NCBI GenBank assembly: GCA_013791855.1
Contig: VMTA01000009.1
Coordinates: forward strand, 1 to 64,000
Source of the DNA: Sideroxydans sp.
Lineage (GTDB): Bacteria > Pseudomonadota > Gammaproteobacteria > Burkholderiales > Gallionellaceae
Direction: 5' to 3'
Length of the DNA stretch: 64,000 nucleotides
Below the pieces are notes generated by a model. It worked only from the letters and a program-made list of their open reading frames with translations. It ran no database searches and was not told the origin of the DNA. The position numbers and the translations under genes are program-made. Below are positions 1 through 22,868 of the stretch, piece after piece. Each line of letters opens with the position of its first letter. Within the stretch, counting starts at the first letter, position 1.

Positions 1-2523
1 AACCTCCGCACCTAGTCCTTGCAGCAGATTGATAAGGCCTGTTGCCACCAGTGTGTCGTCCTCAACCACAACCAGACGTTTGCCCTGGATCAGTCGTTCA
101 TGGGCAATGTCATCCTGCAGGACTACGGGGGCGAGATGTTCGATCTCGTGCGCTTCGCCGTTGAGCTGGAGTTGGAATGCGAACACCGAGCCGGATCCGG
201 GGCGCGAACGGCAAGTCACTTTGCCGTCCAGCAGAGCCATGGCGCGCTGACAGATGGAGAGGCCCAGTCCCAGCCCCGCGTTCCGGTTGCGTTGCGGGTT
301 GGATGCTTGAAAGAACTCTTCAAAGATGTGTGAGGCATCCGCCTCGCCGATCCCGATGCCGGTATCCCATACCTGGATCAAGATGTGGCTGCCGCGCTGG
401 CGGGCGCTGACCAGAATGCCGCCACGCGGTGTGAATTTGATGGCGTTGGTGACCAGATTCATCAAGACGGATTGCAGCAGGCCGATGTCTGTGCGCACGA
501 CCAGTGAACGTCGTGTCGGGAACCGCAGGCGGAAGTCCAACCGCTTGTCTTGTGCGCTCTGGGTGAAGTTTTGTGCGAGCCAGTTGAATAGTTCGGACAG
601 ATCGACAGAGGAGAGTTGGGGTTTGATCAGTCCCGCATCGAATTTGGAGATGTCCAGCAGGCGTTCGAGCAGGCCGGAGAAGACCTTCATGGATTGGTCC
701 AGGCGCTCGATGATCTCGCTCTGGCGCGGGGTGGGGGAAGTGAGTTTGAGGGTGTCGACAAACAGGTTGGCGGCTGCGACAGGTTGCCTCAGGTCATGGC
801 CTGCCGCAGCAAGGAACCGGGTCTTGGAAAGTTCTTTTTCTTCCAGCATGCGGAATGAATCGAGCGATTTCTCTTCCGCCCTGACGCGCGCAGTGATGTC
901 TTGCACGGCACCTGTGCCAGTGTGCGGCGCACCGCTGGCGTCAAAGAGTATGTGTGCGCGTTCTTCCACCCAGCGGGTCTCGCCGTTGACGAGGACGCGG
1001 TGCTGGGTGAGATAGCTGCCGTCCTGCAGCGCTTTGCGCCATGTGGCGTCGACCCTTGTCCGATCATCCGGGTGTACATGATCGAGGAAGTGCTTGTAGG
1101 TGAGAGGTGTGCCGGGTGGCATGCCGAAGATGCGGTAGGTCTCTTCGGACCAGACCAGTTCATCCCGCCGCAGGTCGAGTCGCCAGCTGCCGACATGGGC
1201 CACGGCCTGTGTTTGCTGTAGTAAGGCTTCGTTGAAAAGGATGCGCTCTTCTGCCAGCTTGTGCTCGGTGATGTCGACGCACAAGCCGGTCATCCGTTCC
1301 GCTCCGCTGTCGGGGGCGCGGCGGGTGCTGCCGATGGCGACGATCCATTTGGTTTCACCGTCAGGCAGGATCACCCGGTATTCGTTATAGAGCGGTGTCC
1401 TGTCGCGCAGGGACGCGGCGACCCGGTCTTGGGCGGCTTTGCGATCTTCAGGATGTAGCAGGCTCTGCCAGATTTCAAAAGTCCCTTCGGATGTCCTTGG
1501 TTCGAGGCCGAACAGCATGAACAGTTCATCGGACCAGATGAGCTTGCCGGTTTTCAGGTCCCAGTCCCATACGCCGGCCTTTGAGGTGCGCTGCGCCAGC
1601 GACAACATTTCGTTCGCACGCTGCAGCGATGCGAGCAAGTTCTTTCGTTCGCCCAGCATGGTCGTAACCATGAGGCCGATCAGGGAAGCGGTGAACATAT
1701 ACAGCCAGGCTAGATACATGCCTTCGACATCCGGCAATTCGCCGAAGATGCCTTTTCCCAAAGCGGTGCCTATCACTGTGATCAGTGCCAGCACCAGTAC
1801 GGAGATCGAGGCACCGGTCACGCCCAGCCTGAGTGCGGCCCATAGCACCAGAGGCATGGGCAGGAAGGCCAGTGGCAGATTGTGTCCCTCGAATGTATAG
1901 ATGAAGGCTGCCCAGCCAGAGAGTGCGAGCAGTAAGGTACAGAGCAACAGTTGCAAAGGGTGCTGCAGTAGTTCTGCGATGCTCGATCTATTGAGACTCA
2001 GTAACAGCGGACTGACCAGCATGATGCTGATGAGGTCACCCAGCCACCAGTTGAACTAGGCAAGAGGTATGCCGGACGGTTGCAGTAGCCCCCCCATCCA
2101 CAGCGTACCGGTGCCTATGATCGCGGGTAGCACGGGACTGATCGCCGAAGTGACGATCAGTGCCAGCAGATCCCGCTGGCGGGTGAATGATGGGTCGAAC
2201 CCCCAGCGTTTCAGCAGCCACACAGCAGTGACCGGTGTCAGCGTGTTACCCGCTGCACTCAGTAGTGATAGCGGAATGGAGGTGTCGAGCGAAAGATCGA
2301 ATATGAGCGCGCCGAGAAAGATGCCGGCAATGTTGTGGGGCGAGCTCCAGCGCAACAGGATGGCTGCGGCCATGCCGGTCGGGAGCCAGAACAGAGTGAT
2401 GTGGTCGTCATGTGTCGGGAAATACAGCCCGAGCCTTGCGCCAGCGAAGTATGCGGCAGCCAGCAGCAGGAGGTTCCTGTACTGTTTCCATGCGTGCGGA
2501 TGATCTGCTGGCTTGCCCATCAT
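1..2523 (-). pseudogene. MASE1-PAS-PAS hybrid histidine kinase, interrupted by one in-frame TAG; 3' end off window
   Basis: Translating the minus strand gives a start at 2523, then 155 codons of a multi-span MASE1 membrane sensor, a TAG at 2056-2058, then 685 codons in the same frame with no other stop to base 1 (I checked every triplet). The MASE1 signature WWLGDL follows directly after the stop, so the stop lies inside a conserved membrane domain. Downstream are two PAS domains (about residues 305-430 and 435-560), a HisKA H-box GHDLRQP (His near residue 576), an HATPase with N-box NLVTNAIKF and G-boxes DTGIGI and GLGLGLS, and the beginning of a receiver domain (LVVVEDD). As read it could not make a full-length kinase; a fragment from an internal start would lack most of the sensor. 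A base-call error (TGG to TAG would restore Trp) is the main alternative to true gene decay. Confidence 0.85.
2056..2058 (-). other. in-frame amber codon inside MASE1 domain
   Basis: The forward triplet cta reads TAG on the minus strand. The frame is open and homologous-looking on both sides (GIPLA before, FNWWLGDL after). One substitution would restore a sense codon; no frameshift is involved. Confidence 0.9.
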
Positions 2524-2661
2524 AGGTTATGAGGGAAAGTGTGAGGGGGCGGTCGCGACGTCTTGGGCTGTGTATGACATAACTTACATGCGCTCAAGCG
2601 TACCCCCCCATTAGGCGAACGGCTCTGGCCGTTTCGAAAGTATTTGTCGTTGGCCTCTCAC

Positions 2662-2738
2662 CGTGCATGCGGAGCGATGTGCCTTGAACGAACTGCAAGT
2701 CGTGCGTGAATGTATGGGGAAGTCGAATCGCTGTCAAT
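2662..2738 (-). repeat. promoter/leader repeat, copy 1 (upstream of the histidine kinase)
   Basis: This stretch matches 5234-5311 with one single-base length change. Shared blocks at conserved spacing, on the forward strand: CGTGCATGCGG, CGAA, CTGCAAGTCG, TATGGG and TGTCAAT. On the minus strand it starts with a TTGACA promoter and continues through about 40 nt of the predicted transcript. The kinase start codon lies about 140 bases further on. Confidence 0.8.
2709..2737 (-). promoter_or_regulatory. sigma-70-type promoter for the histidine kinase gene
   Basis: On the minus strand, TTGACA (2732-2737) is followed by a 17-bp spacer and TACATT (2709-2714). The predicted start near 2702 leaves a leader of about 180 nt. 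The leader contains the hairpin AACGGC-CAGA-GCCGTT near 2610-2630. Confidence 0.65.
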
Positions 2739-2751
2739 CTGGCTCGCCGAT

Positions 2752-5169
2752 TCAAGTTCCGTCCTGAGCGGGGGTATAAATGGCTACCCGGTTCCGTCCC
2801 GCCTCTTTTGCGCTGTACATGGCGCTATCGCCATGACTCAGGATGTCGTACTGATTGTCATTCTTGCCATCGAACAATGTGATGCCGATGCTGCTGGTGC
2901 ATTCATGCGTGATGGGGATCATTTCGTGGCCCCTGGGCTGGGTCAGATGATAAGGGGTCGCCAACGCGGTGATGATCTTTTCGGCGACGATGAAAGCCTG
3001 CTTTTGCATCTCCTCGCGGCTGCTGGACAAGTCGCCGAGCACGATCACGAATTCATCGCCGCCGAAGCGCGCGACCGTGTCGATCTCGCGTACCGAGCCG
3101 GTGAGACGTCGCGCGACTTCGATCAGCAGTTGGTCGCCGACTTCATGGCCGCATTTGTCGTTGATGGGTTTGAAGTTGTCCAGATCGAGGAACAATAGCG
3201 CGCCATAGGCATCGTTGCGTTTGCTGGTGGCGAGCGACTTCGAGAGCCTGTCGCTCAGCATGCGCCGGTTGGGAAGGCGGGTGAGCGGATCGAAGAATGC
3301 GAGGGAATAGATCTCGTGTTCGATCTCCTTGCGCTTGCTGATGTCGCGGCAGAAGGCGATGTTGTATTCAAGTTCACCCAATTGGACGTGATTGGCCGAA
3401 ACCTCCACCGGAATGATGCTGCCGTCCTTGCGCCGGTGACGGGTCTCGAACAACTGGGACTTGTTTTTTTTGAGCGCTTCCCAGTGCGCCTTCCATTGAG
3501 CCACAGGAAAATCGGGGTCCAGATCCGGAACGGAGAGTCTTAACAACTCTTCCTTGCTGTATCCCAATGTCTCGCAACTCTGCTTGTTGACGTAGCGGAT
3601 GCGGCCGTCTTTATCCAGCCAGTAGATGGCATCGAATGCCTTGTCCATGGCGAACATGGAGAGCACTAGCTGCGCTTCGGATTCCTTCTTGTCGTTGATG
3701 TCCACGCCGCTGCCGATAAAGCCGAGGAACTCGCCTTTGCTATCGTAGCGCGGCACGCCATGGTCGACGATCCAACGGTATTCGCCGGAGTGATGCCGCA
3801 AGCGATATTCCAGGGTGAATTCCCGGCGCGCGTCGAAGGCCATGATGAAGGCGTGCACACAGTCTTCTCGGTCTTCGGGGTGGACGCCTTCCGCCCAGCC
3901 TTCTCCCAGCTCCTGCGCCTTAGTGCGGCCGGTGAAATCCAGCCAGACTTGGTTGAAGTATGTGCATTGTTTGTCCGGGCCGGCGAGCCAGATCAGCACG
4001 GATTCGTTCTTGGCCAGCACGCGCAGGTTCTCTTCGCTCCTGCGTAACTCGGAGACGGCGATCTTGGCCTTGTTCAGTGCCGCGCGCGACTGGGTGAGCG
4101 CGGTGATCAGGAAGTAAAGCAGGATGCTGGTCAGCGTGCCGCTGAAGAAGATCGTCTTGGCTTGGCTGTAGTCTAGGCCGGCCCCATTCAGGGCATAGTG
4201 CTCGCTTAGCAACGTCCATTCATTACCGCCGAATTCGAGTTTCTGCCGGATGGTGACGGGCTGTGCCGCGTGGTCTTTCATGACGCGGTTGGTGTAGAGC
4301 AGGGCGGTGTCGCTGACTTCGCTTCCATCATAGATGCTGAGTTGAAGTGGCATGGCGCTCTCCTCGGGCTTTGCTGCACCGAGGGCATTCTCGACCATGT
4401 CCTTCATGCGGAAGGGGCTGTATATCCAGCCATACAATGCAGCACGACGTTGGGCTTCGGTTTCGTGCGGCATCCCTTGCCGGTATAGCGGGAGGTACAT
4501 GAGTGTGCCCGCCTGGACATCCTCCGAGGTCTCTTGTACGAGCTTTACCTTGCCGGAAAGGGCTGCTGCATCCGTGTCGCGCGCGCGGTCCATCGCGGCA
4601 CGGCGGGTGGGCTCGGAATACATGTTGTAGCCGAAGGCGCGCAAGTTGCGGCCGGTGAACGGCTCCAGATAGACGATGGCGGTGTAGTTCTCATGATCCT
4701 GCTTGGGCCACACTTCGTAATCCGGAAATCCTTCGCGGCGTACCGATGCGATGTGCGAAGCAAGTTGCTTGCGGGGTATCCATTGGGCATAACCTATGCC
4801 CTGCACACTCTTGAAGTGATGGTTCAACTGTATGCGATGGGTATAGCGCTTCCATTCATCGCGCGTCACGCTGGCGGAGGAGTCGAAAAAGGCGGCAGCG
4901 CCCAGCAATACCTGTTCGTGCGAGGCTAGCGTAGCCAATAGATGCATGCGCACCTCTTCGGCATCCGAGGCATAGCGTTCAAGCGCGATCTCATCGGCGT
5001 CGACTTTTGCATCGAGGCTGAAATACAGGGTGATAGCCATGCCCGCAAGCATCACCGTAAAGGCGTACTTGCAGAATTGCTTCACGTCAGCCATGAGGTG
5101 CATGGCGGATATTTCGATCTGCTTTACAGACACTGGATTCCCCTTGATGCGGACAACGACTGGCTTCAT
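2752..5169 (-). CDS. membrane diguanylate cyclase, CHASE-PAS-PAS-GGDEF
   Basis: This 805-residue protein makes cyclic di-GMP from two GTP. An N-terminal span (about residues 36-53) leads to a periplasmic CHASE-type ligand domain (about 80-300), a second span near 340, two PAS domains (about 385-490 and 510-625) and a C-terminal GGDEF domain. The catalytic GGDEF is intact near residue 702. An RxxD inhibitory site (REID) lies five residues before it, so product feedback is likely. No EAL domain is present. It is read in the same direction as the disrupted histidine kinase and shares a promoter/leader repeat with it, which suggests common control. The CHASE ligand cannot be told from sequence. 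Confidence 0.93.
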   Translation of the reverse strand: MKPVVVRIKGNPVSVKQIEISAMHLMADVKQFCKYAFTVMLAGMAITLYFSLDAKVDADEIALERYASDAEEVRMHLLATLASHEQVLLGAAAFFDSSASVTRDEWKRYTHRIQLNHHFKSVQGIGYAQWIPRKQLASHIASVRREGFPDYEVWPKQDHENYTAIVYLEPFTGRNLRAFGYNMYSEPTRRAAMDRARDTDAAALSGKVKLVQETSEDVQAGTLMYLPLYRQGMPHETEAQRRAALYGWIYSPFRMKDMVENALGAAKPEESAMPLQLSIYDGSEVSDTALLYTNRVMKDHAAQPVTIRQKLEFGGNEWTLLSEHYALNGAGLDYSQAKTIFFSGTLTSILLYFLITALTQSRAALNKAKIAVSELRRSEENLRVLAKNESVLIWLAGPDKQCTYFNQVWLDFTGRTKAQELGEGWAEGVHPEDREDCVHAFIMAFDARREFTLEYRLRHHSGEYRWIVDHGVPRYDSKGEFLGFIGSGVDINDKKESEAQLVLSMFAMDKAFDAIYWLDKDGRIRYVNKQSCETLGYSKEELLRLSVPDLDPDFPVAQWKAHWEALKKNKSQLFETRHRRKDGSIIPVEVSANHVQLGELEYNIAFCRDISKRKEIEHEIYSLAFFDPLTRLPNRRMLSDRLSKSLATSKRNDAYGALLFLDLDNFKPINDKCGHEVGDQLLIEVARRLTGSVREIDTVARFGGDEFVIVLGDLSSSREEMQKQAFIVAEKIITALATPYHLTQPRGHEMIPITHECTSSIGITLFDGKNDNQYDILSHGDSAMYSAKEAGRNRVAIYTPAQDGT

Positions 5170-5233
5170 CCCTCTGCGGGGATACTTTCTTGCGCCAGCC
5201 TCCTGTCCGGGGATCTCGTTGACCTTCCTCCAG

Positions 5234-5311
5234 CGTGCATGCGGTGGAGTGTGAGTTCAGCGAATCTGCAAGTCGGTCGAAACTCTATGGGCACAATACC
5301 TGTGTGTCAAT
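5234..5311 (-). repeat. promoter/leader repeat, copy 2 (upstream of the CHASE-GGDEF gene)
   Basis: This is the partner of 2662-2738: the same ordered blocks with one extra base. It begins 65 bases upstream of the cyclase start codon. Conservation continues past the -10 box into the predicted RNA, so it is more than a chance pair of promoter hexamers. Confidence 0.8.
5282..5310 (-). promoter_or_regulatory. sigma-70-type promoter for the CHASE-GGDEF gene
   Basis: On the minus strand, TTGACA (5305-5310), a 17-bp spacer and TAGAGT (5282-5287). Predicted leader is about 105 nt and opens with the conserved CGACTTGCAG block. Confidence 0.65.
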
Positions 5312-14456: not shown

Positions 14457-15487
14457 GGCAATGCGTAGGGTAGCGTTTCGAATTCCAGGCGCGGCCCGGT
14501 CAATGCACCAAGATGCACCGGGAACGCATCCGCAGTTTCAGTCTGCACCACTACCAGCATCTCGTAGCCGCCATGCGCCGCCTGGGCAGCGTTCACCACC
14601 TCGCCGCAGGGCTGCGCGGGATCTGCGGCGCTGAACACCTTGTCGCCGGGCAGTGGCGCGGCATCGGTCATCACGCGTGCCAGATACATGCGGCGCTTCG
14701 CCTTGCCGAGATAATGCATGCGCGCCACGACTTCCTGTCCCGGATAGCAGCCTTTCTTGAAATTGATGCCGCCGATCAGTTCGAAATTCACCATCTGCGC
14801 GACGAATGCTTCCTGCGTCTGTGGCAGGATGAAAGGCACACCGGCGCGGATGTCCAGCCAGTCCCAGCAGGGAGAGCCGGCGGGCGCAGCGGTTGCACTC
14901 AAGGCTTGCCATATCTCCGTCGCGCGTGCGACATCAGCGACGATCTGCACGCGGCGTGCATCACGGCGGATCAGCGTGGCATCGGCAACTTGAGCGACGC
15001 TCATGCCGTCGGCCGGCAAGTCGGCGTACAGTCCCTGCACTGCGGCCAGCGCCTTGTCTCCGCTCAATCCGATGCACACCCGCTCGTCACTGATGTCGGC
15101 GATCTTCACCTTGGAGCGCAACACATACATGGTCAGCTTCTTGCGCATCACCTCGCACAGTCCGCGCGGCATCTGCAGCAGGTAGTCGTCGCCCTGTTTC
15201 CATATCAGCATGCTGGCCAGCATGCGGCCCTTGGCGTTGTTGAAACTGGAGAGTTGCGCGCGTCCGCTGTCGGTATCGCGGATGTCGTTGGAGAGCAGGT
15301 TCTGCAGGAAGCCCTGCGCGTCTTCGCCGCTCACTTGCAGCAAGCCGAACTGCGACAGGTCGCACAGGATGTCGCCGGTCTCGGCGGCGGCACGCTCTGC
15401 CGCGGCATCGCCGAAATCGTGCACCACACCTGCGCTGAGATTCGCGTTTTTGCTTGCCAGGAAACTTTGCCAGTCAGTGTTCATCAT
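14453..15487 (-). CDS. ygfZ: tRNA-modifying/Fe-S maintenance protein YgfZ
   Basis: This 344-residue member of the GcvT/YgfZ family binds folate and supports repair or assembly of certain iron-sulfur enzymes such as MiaB. The hallmark KGCYPGQE motif with its conserved Cys is present near residue 245. An MMN start follows a short leader and diverges from the ABC binding-protein gene, whose start lies 67 bases away. Confidence 0.93.
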   Translation of the reverse strand: MMNTDWQSFLASKNANLSAGVVHDFGDAAAERAAAETGDILCDLSQFGLLQVSGEDAQGFLQNLLSNDIRDTDSGRAQLSSFNNAKGRMLASMLIWKQGDDYLLQMPRGLCEVMRKKLTMYVLRSKVKIADISDERVCIGLSGDKALAAVQGLYADLPADGMSVAQVADATLIRRDARRVQIVADVARATEIWQALSATAAPAGSPCWDWLDIRAGVPFILPQTQEAFVAQMVNFELIGGINFKKGCYPGQEVVARMHYLGKAKRRMYLARVMTDAAPLPGDKVFSAADPAQPCGEVVNAAQAAHGGYEMLVVVQTETADAFPVHLGALTGPRLEFETLPYALP

Positions 15488-22226: not shown

Positions 22227-22868
22227 TCAGGTCGATGACTCTTGCCAGGCCTGACGCAGGGTGTCGGCAAACACCTCGACCGGTTGTGCACCCGCGATCA
22301 CGATGCGCTCGTCGATGACGAAGCAGGGCACGCCGGTGATGCCGAAGTCGGCGGCGCGCGCCTGGTCGGCGCGCACTGCTTCCGCATAGGCATCGCTCTC
22401 CAGTATCGCGCGTGCTTCCTGTTCCGTGATGCCGAACTCCGGGGCGAGCTTGGCCAGTGCATTGATATCGCCGACCGGCAGCGACTCCGAGAAGTAGCCG
22501 CGCATCAGGCGTTCAGAAGCGACATCGTCCAGCTGGCGCGAGGCGGCGTAATGCAGCAGGCGGTGGGCATCGAAGGTGTTGCCGGGGCGGGCGCTTTCCA
22601 AGTGGTACTCAAGGCCGACTTCTTTGGCGGCTTCGGTCACCCGCGCGTTCATGGCTTCTGCTTCCTGCAGGGTGACGCTGTACTTTGCTGCCAGCATCTC
22701 GTTCAGCGTGCCGCTCGGGTTGCGTGGTGCAGTGGGGTCCAGTTCGAAACTGCGCCAGACCACCTGCACGCTCTCCCAGTGCGGGAATTGCGAGAGGGCG
22801 ATCTCCAGCTTGCGTTTTCCGACGTAACACCAAGGACAGATCACATCCGACCAGACTTCGATTTGCAT
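22227..22868 (-). CDS. FrnE-like DsbA-family oxidoreductase, cytoplasmic
   Basis: This 213-residue DsbA-family protein has a CPWC active site near the N-terminus (SDVICPWCYVGKRKLE) and the cis-Pro loop GITGVPCFVID. No signal peptide precedes it, so it works in the cytosol like FrnE or HCCA-isomerase relatives, which are linked to redox stress. The longer track ORF (419 aa) is rejected because the first ~200 residues are shadow of the ABC permease region. It converges on msrA and may or may not belong to the methionine repair module. Confidence 0.9.
   Translation of the reverse strand: MQIEVWSDVICPWCYVGKRKLEIALSQFPHWESVQVVWRSFELDPTAPRNPSGTLNEMLAAKYSVTLQEAEAMNARVTEAAKEVGLEYHLESARPGNTFDAHRLLHYAASRQLDDVASERLMRGYFSESLPVGDINALAKLAPEFGITEQEARAILESDAYAEAVRADQARAADFGITGVPCFVIDERIVIAGAQPVEVFADTLRQAWQESST

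Follow-up and report, generated by a model that had tools for sequence, protein, structure and literature searches.

We identified a family of structured 5′ leader RNAs that recurs in the Gallionellaceae together with the promoter in front of it. Computational analysis recovered covariation in two folds of the leader, a three-way junction and a long hairpin, which exclude each other and lie before a Shine–Dalgarno (SD) sequence. As we model it, the leader is probably a translational, riboswitch-like on/off switch fused to a fixed promoter. With more than 150 examples, it would represent an undescribed class of structured RNA in environmentally important iron-oxidising bacteria, in which gene regulation has been little studied.

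Copies of the promoter and leader in a Sideroxydans genome

The window, a 64,000-nt stretch of Sideroxydans sp. DNA (contig VMTA01000009.1, positions 1 to 64,000), carries two copies of the promoter and leader on its minus strand: copy A at 2655-2737 and copy B at 5137-5310. The genes at the locus and the parts of copy A are listed here (helices P1 to P3 are those of the three-way junction described below).

1..2055, minus strand: rest of the hybrid kinase; the receiver domain runs off window base 1
2056..2058, minus strand: in-frame TAG stop inside the kinase gene; the stop-to-stop frames 1..2055 and 2056..2526 are contiguous and in phase
2059..2523, minus strand: N-terminal part of the MASE1-PAS-PAS histidine kinase gene behind copy A (Pfam MASE1)
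2655..2704, minus strand: copy A, truncated, with only P2 and the 5′ strand of P1 remaining (from aligning it to B, C and relatives)
2709..2714, minus strand: -10 box TACATT of copy A, 17-nt spacer (sequence)
2732..2737, minus strand: -35 box TTGACA of copy A (sequence)
2752..5133, minus strand: CHASE-PAS-PAS-GGDEF diguanylate cyclase gene behind copy B (Pfam)

An earlier note on this DNA had described TTGACA-N17 promoters at equal spacing in both copies and a match that continues past the -10 box with a single indel. Both promoters are present on the minus strand, and the match runs through CGACTTGCAG, TTCG, CACA and CCGCATGCACG to the end of the common stretch; the best alignment, however, has three short gaps. 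The local alignment of A and B scored 43, compared to a maximum of 25 among 2000 letter shuffles.

The genome-wide search that the same note had proposed yielded further copies. Searching the genome that the window comes from (2.55 Mb, 47 contigs) revealed a third copy, C, at G000:C1:8731-8822 (minus strand), which is 97% identical to A across 64 nt, and a search with the covariance model R1 (see below) added a fourth, more diverged copy at C42:106037-106127 (plus strand). Copies B and C have ~30 extra conserved bases in common, GAGATCCCCGG(A)ACAGGAGGCTGGCGCAAGA, which are absent from A. Alignment with B, C and relatives showed that A is without P3, the P1 3′ strand and the SD-sequestering arm; its model score was only 49.8 bits, with the 3′ half forced. 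Two weak model matches in the window (22402-22490 and 14718-14806) were dismissed as chance, being protein-coding-like sequence without the conserved core.

The start of the cyclase gene is likely the GTG at 5131-5133, behind the SD sequence, as judged from SD spacing. An alternative ATG (5167-5169) overlaps the P4 hairpin and was considered less likely. The kinase gene behind copy A encodes MASE1-PAS-PAS-HisKA-HATPase domains (Pfam), and the TAG at 2056-2058 marks this hybrid histidine kinase gene as either a pseudogene or the site of an assembly error. A matching C-terminal half of a receiver domain (L016 8879-9148, minus strand) lies at the very end of contig C1, next to copy C, where the kinase seems to continue; C1 and C40 are thus probably adjacent contigs. 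Copy C precedes a protein of ~296 aa with a signal-peptide-like start. The order of the locus is thus likely cyclase, kinase and secreted protein, with one copy each, across a contig join that we infer.

Relatives (loci L046/L056, L036/L055 and L026) carry copy B and the cyclase followed directly by copy C and the secreted protein, with the kinase absent, and the orthologous copies B and C keep their places across several species. Copy A thus appears to have arisen secondarily, as a partial copy of C linked to the kinase, and to be what is left of a decayed promoter in front of a disrupted kinase gene. This bears on the earlier suggestion that a shared element co-regulates the kinase and the cyclase. 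That suggestion is only partly right. Copy B, before the cyclase, is complete. For the kinase it is not supported: copy A is without the switching half, the kinase frame is broken by the TAG, and the conserved partner of the cyclase in several relatives is the secreted-protein gene behind copy C.

The three-way junction and the extent of the family

The promoter and junction of copy B comprise the following parts.

5305..5310, minus strand: -35 box TTGACA (sequence); conservation begins sharply here across 148 aligned copies
5282..5287, minus strand: -10 box TAGAGT, 17-nt spacer (sequence); the family form is TA(A/C)(A/G)GT
5186..5277, minus strand: full structured leader RNA, 93 model positions (cmsearch, 104 bits, E 2.9e-32 in the window, B itself being among the nine seed sequences of the model)
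5268..5272, minus strand: P1 5′ strand CUUGC, partner 5189-5193; 97.4% of cells paired in alignment A6
5207..5210, minus strand: P3 5′ strand CCGG, partner CUGG 5195-5198; 98.5% of cells paired
5195..5198, minus strand: P3 3′ strand CUGG, inside GGCUGGC 5194-5200
5189..5193, minus strand: P1 3′ strand GCAAG (A6 alignment)

Upstream of the -35 box the 148 aligned copies have only a weak C-rich bias, and conservation fades beyond the SD sequence and start codon. The transcript start is predicted at about P1; in the proposed mechanism it would fall at or just before ACUUGCAG. The leader RNA of ~93 nt folds into a three-way junction of P1 (CUUGC/GCAAG), P3 (CC(A/G)G/CUGG) and a long P2 with outer and inner helices and the loop CCGCA.G.ACGG, in which CA-G-A is conserved.

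The earlier note had called for a covariance analysis of the leaders, and covariation proved strong. In 69 aligned members, 89.7% of the cells at junction pairs were standard pairs, and 16 of the 23 pairs had changed on both sides. Double-changed cells numbered 120, against 43 ± 5 after shuffling (0 of 500 shuffles) and at most 41 when slid, in shuffles that ignore sequence relatedness. P1 varies little and has few double changes (C-G to U-A and U-A to C-G in A6), and P3 covaries weakly. Of two readings offered for the conservation past the -10 box, an operator or a short RNA element, it is the RNA that is borne out, covarying, conserved in relatives and found genome-wide. At loci L134 and L209 the RNA is present behind unrelated upstream sequence without the TTGACA box, which argues that it is more than a hitch-hiker of the promoter.

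Unpaired positions are also constrained, with 15 of the 47 unpaired columns conserved at ≥90%. These columns would fit a binding pocket. Conservation is strongest in the P2 loop and the junction and not only in the P3 loop, and this weighs against the alternative that a trans-acting protein or small RNA works the leader by binding the junction or opening the SD hairpin. With AGGA in the P3 loop, CsrA/RsmA would be the first candidate: the loop AACAGGAGG resembles GGA-in-loop sites, and the support for both folds also fits such a regulator. A check for the CsrA motif, ANGGA in a hairpin loop that overlaps the SD, found AGGA in the P3 loop of most members, with GUGAGG and other variants lacking it. 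The loop is variable, and GAACAGUGAGG, GAUUAGGAG and other variants break or shift the GGA. We consider regulation in trans unlikely, and a small-molecule signal likelier.

The extent of the family was assessed via R1, which was built from nine full-length sequences (alignment A4) and used with a match threshold of E ≤ 0.01. R1 matched 81 of 158 genomes of the family in nine of 15 genera, and a single genome had as many as 12 copies. The named loci among them include those of Sideroxydans sp. LH_M3 and S. lithotrophicus FI88, names that point to Gallionellaceae as the family. When 369 genomes sampled from the class were searched, only the window's own genome matched and none of the 368 others did; this sample also serves as a negative control for R1. 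In an order sample of 399, the only match outside Gallionellaceae was a weak one of 24 bits. Among the genomes searched, the RNA family is restricted to Gallionellaceae, iron-oxidising bacteria. An exact-pattern scan of genome contigs returned mostly chance matches, the real ones being only those at L026, L036 and L046. The copy B leader had no match in a phage collection, nor did the leader of copy D (L056, before an HsdR-N-like gene) in a plasmid collection.

A plain local promoter duplication in the window's genome was what the earlier note expected to be left if there were no further copies and no conservation in relatives. Copies A, B and C do seem to lie in one gene cluster, but with matches in 81 genomes, mostly at unrelated loci, such a duplication has next to no probability as an explanation of the repeat. 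It was refuted for B and C and remains a fair description of the origin of copy A.

Searched at permissive thresholds, the window copies and members from 25 further loci gave only chance matches off the element, and none of the 4227 models in Rfam 15 matched the element itself. No open-licence paper was found for Gallionellaceae with riboswitch or for Gallionella with RNA motif; two such papers, PMC6717892 and PMC8886135, contain the words Sideroxydans and riboswitch once each. The leader RNA is apparently a large family undescribed so far.

The second fold and a switch model

The remainder of copy B, which includes the partners of the second (off) fold, is as follows.

5209..5213, minus strand: UCCCC, off-fold partner of the SD GGGGA (minimum-energy fold, full leader)
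5168..5183, minus strand: P4 hairpin AUCCCCGCAGAGGGAU, between the two off-fold arms (folds)
5150..5164, minus strand: off-fold 3′ arm, GCCAGUC (5158-5164) and UUGUCCG (5150-5156) (own-versus-permuted pairing test, 0/1000)
5139..5145, minus strand: SD AAGGGGA, sequestered in the off fold (sequence; SD unpaired median 0.01 in full leaders)

In the family, the junction is followed by the P4 hairpin (CCCGC..CGGG), GCCAGC, CUUGUUC and the SD AAGGGGA. When the whole leader is folded, UCCCC pairs with the SD, GAACAG(G/U) with (C/A)UGUUC, and GCUGGCG with CGCCAGC. In copy B, GGCUGGC (5194-5200) has GCCAGUC (5158-5164) as its alternative partner, and UUGUCCG (5150-5156) pairs with CGGACAG. The off fold takes the P3 strands and part of P1, and therefore the two folds exclude each other. 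The median P1 probability was 0.97 for the 5′ element alone; in 125 full leaders the P1 probability was 0.01 and the median probability of a free SD also 0.01. Across these leaders a forced junction averaged 8.0 kcal/mol above the minimum. The mean for a free SD was 0.11 with the native leader versus 0.23 with a shuffled one.

Support for the off fold came from pairing between the loop and the tail, which scored 11.37 with a leader's own tail versus 9.39 ± 0.29 with permuted tails (0/1000, relatedness ignored). Compensatory variants of this pairing include GAUCAG/CUGAUC, GGACAGG/CUUGUCC and GAAGAGG/CUUUUUC, and those of the GCUGGC arm CCGACG/CGUCGG and GGCGGC/GCCGCC. The GCUGGC arm (X3) alone gave 271/1000 in the permutation test, for which it is too invariant. 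On an alignment unfitted to structure, 80.8% of off-fold cells were paired and double changes numbered 77 versus 43 ± 6 after shuffling, again with relatedness ignored. A covarying folded domain in a 5′ leader and a mutually exclusive expression platform, two of the features by which riboswitches are recognised (direct binding of a small ligand or ion without protein being another), were thus both found computationally.

We propose a portable unit in which a fixed sigma-70-type promoter would transcribe a structured 5′ leader of ~160 nt. As long as the junction is held, the P3 strands would be occupied and the SD AAGGGGA free. With the junction lost, the P3 region (UCCCC, GAACAG and GCUGGC) would pair with the tail (GCCAGC, CUUGUUC and the SD GGGGA), forming a long off hairpin that would block ribosome binding. 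By analogy with riboswitches, a signal would stabilise the junction and turn translation on; it may be a small molecule or, less likely, a protein or small RNA. Copy B would control the cyclase in this manner, and copy C (contig C1) the secreted protein. We infer switching in the cell, its direction and a ligand as its trigger. Because the junction lies well above the energy minimum, switching would need to happen during transcription or be driven strongly by a ligand.

Some details suggest that the output may be more complex than SD blocking: about 25 of 154 copies have no recognisable SD by the rule used, and approximately one-third of copies start a short ORF instead of the main gene. The off hairpin ends in the SD, unlike the terminator of a transcription attenuator, and reading the sequences of copy B and the listed members found no U run after P4 or the off hairpin. 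We rejected a leader peptide beginning at the conserved ATGCAC, as its frame and length vary between B, C and relatives.

The leader resembles translational riboswitches with SD sequestration in combining a folded domain at the 5′ end with a hairpin that excludes it and takes up the SD. It differs from them in its promoter, conserved with the RNA from the -35 box onward, in its about 70 target groups and in its confinement to one bacterial family. Known riboswitch classes normally have only the RNA in common, so that the coupling of a conserved switch to a conserved promoter is unusual.

Target genes and genomic neighbourhoods

ORFs behind 145 copies fell into about 70 unrelated groups (BLASTP), some of which are probably spurious frames. 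The largest were SAM-dependent methyltransferases (28) and PAS/GGDEF-type signalling proteins (21). A profile search with one representative per group found GajA/OLD-like ATPases, SIR2_2, nSTAND, patatin, class-3 lipase, ABC-3C domains, MCP, HDOD and others. No pathway obviously links these targets. With targets this varied (diguanylate cyclases, methyltransferases, ORF6N, Gabija-, SIR2- and nSTAND-like proteins), what triggers the leader becomes a directly testable question.

The c-di-GMP-I (GEMM) riboswitch is a multi-copy three-helix junction in the 5′ leaders of a wide range of genes, GGDEF genes among them. The leader RNA is like c-di-GMP-I (RF01051) in being such a junction before varied genes, and it may serve a scattered regulon of a similar kind. 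However, the core motifs differ, with no match in sequence or structure, and the RF01051 model gave no match on the element at E up to 1-10, whether among the window copies or across members from 25 other loci. RF01051 copies occur in the same Gallionellaceae genomes at other loci, three of them in the window's genome; since c-di-GMP-I riboswitches are present there as a separate family, the leader RNA does not belong to that class. We offer only tentatively, and with clearly less confidence than the switch itself, that the leader is an orphan riboswitch class for a scattered signalling, membrane and phage-defence-like regulon, spread as a promoter-plus-switch unit.

Spread could also be all there is to the repeat, that is, a mobile or duplicating promoter–leader unit without present-day switching, propagated by recombination in tandem arrays and alike through recent spread. 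All copies had the same orientation in each of the 20 multi-copy loci fetched, A and C differ little (97% identity over 64 nt), contigs frequently end just behind copies, and the C-rich spacer and the surroundings of the start codon are alike as well. However, both folds carry compensatory changes, a sign that RNA pairing is under selection; the orthologous copies B and C hold their positions in several species; and conservation begins only at the -35 box, upstream of which there is neither conserved sequence nor any attC-like site. This explanation is improbable, even more so than regulation in trans, and we retain a switch as the preferred reading. Tandem, co-oriented units with varied accessory genes, several of them defence-like, recall integron gene cassettes; unlike the 3′ recombination site of a cassette, the repeat here is a promoter and leader at the 5′ end of the gene. 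A test for attC-like sites (GTTRRRY/RYYYAAC cores with inverted repeats) found none enriched upstream of copies; GTTRRRY occurred in six of 143 regions versus 14 of 143 shuffled.

Many copies have an SD that serves a short ORF of 16-60 codons ahead of the main gene. At L198, L193, L194, L135 and L201, for example, a short ORF just after the SD is accompanied by a further conserved hairpin, AGACCA...UGGUCU, which has compensatory variants and sits before the main gene. Several downstream genes of A8 members such as L176, L180, L151, L193 and L212 match anti-phage defence profiles; those matched downstream of copies were GajA, PtuA/OLD, SIR2, SLATT and retron effector-like. Assemblies break within a few hundred bases behind the copy at L137, L139, L142, L160, L165, L198 and L220, suggesting repeated sequence there, such as methyltransferase genes. 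At least eight genomes have a methyltransferase- or ORF6N-linked copy with a c-di-GMP-I riboswitch 7-20 kb away, both oriented alike (G026:C39, G151:C25, G014:C8, G006:C2, G028:C1, G004:C1, G007:C13 and G027:C52).
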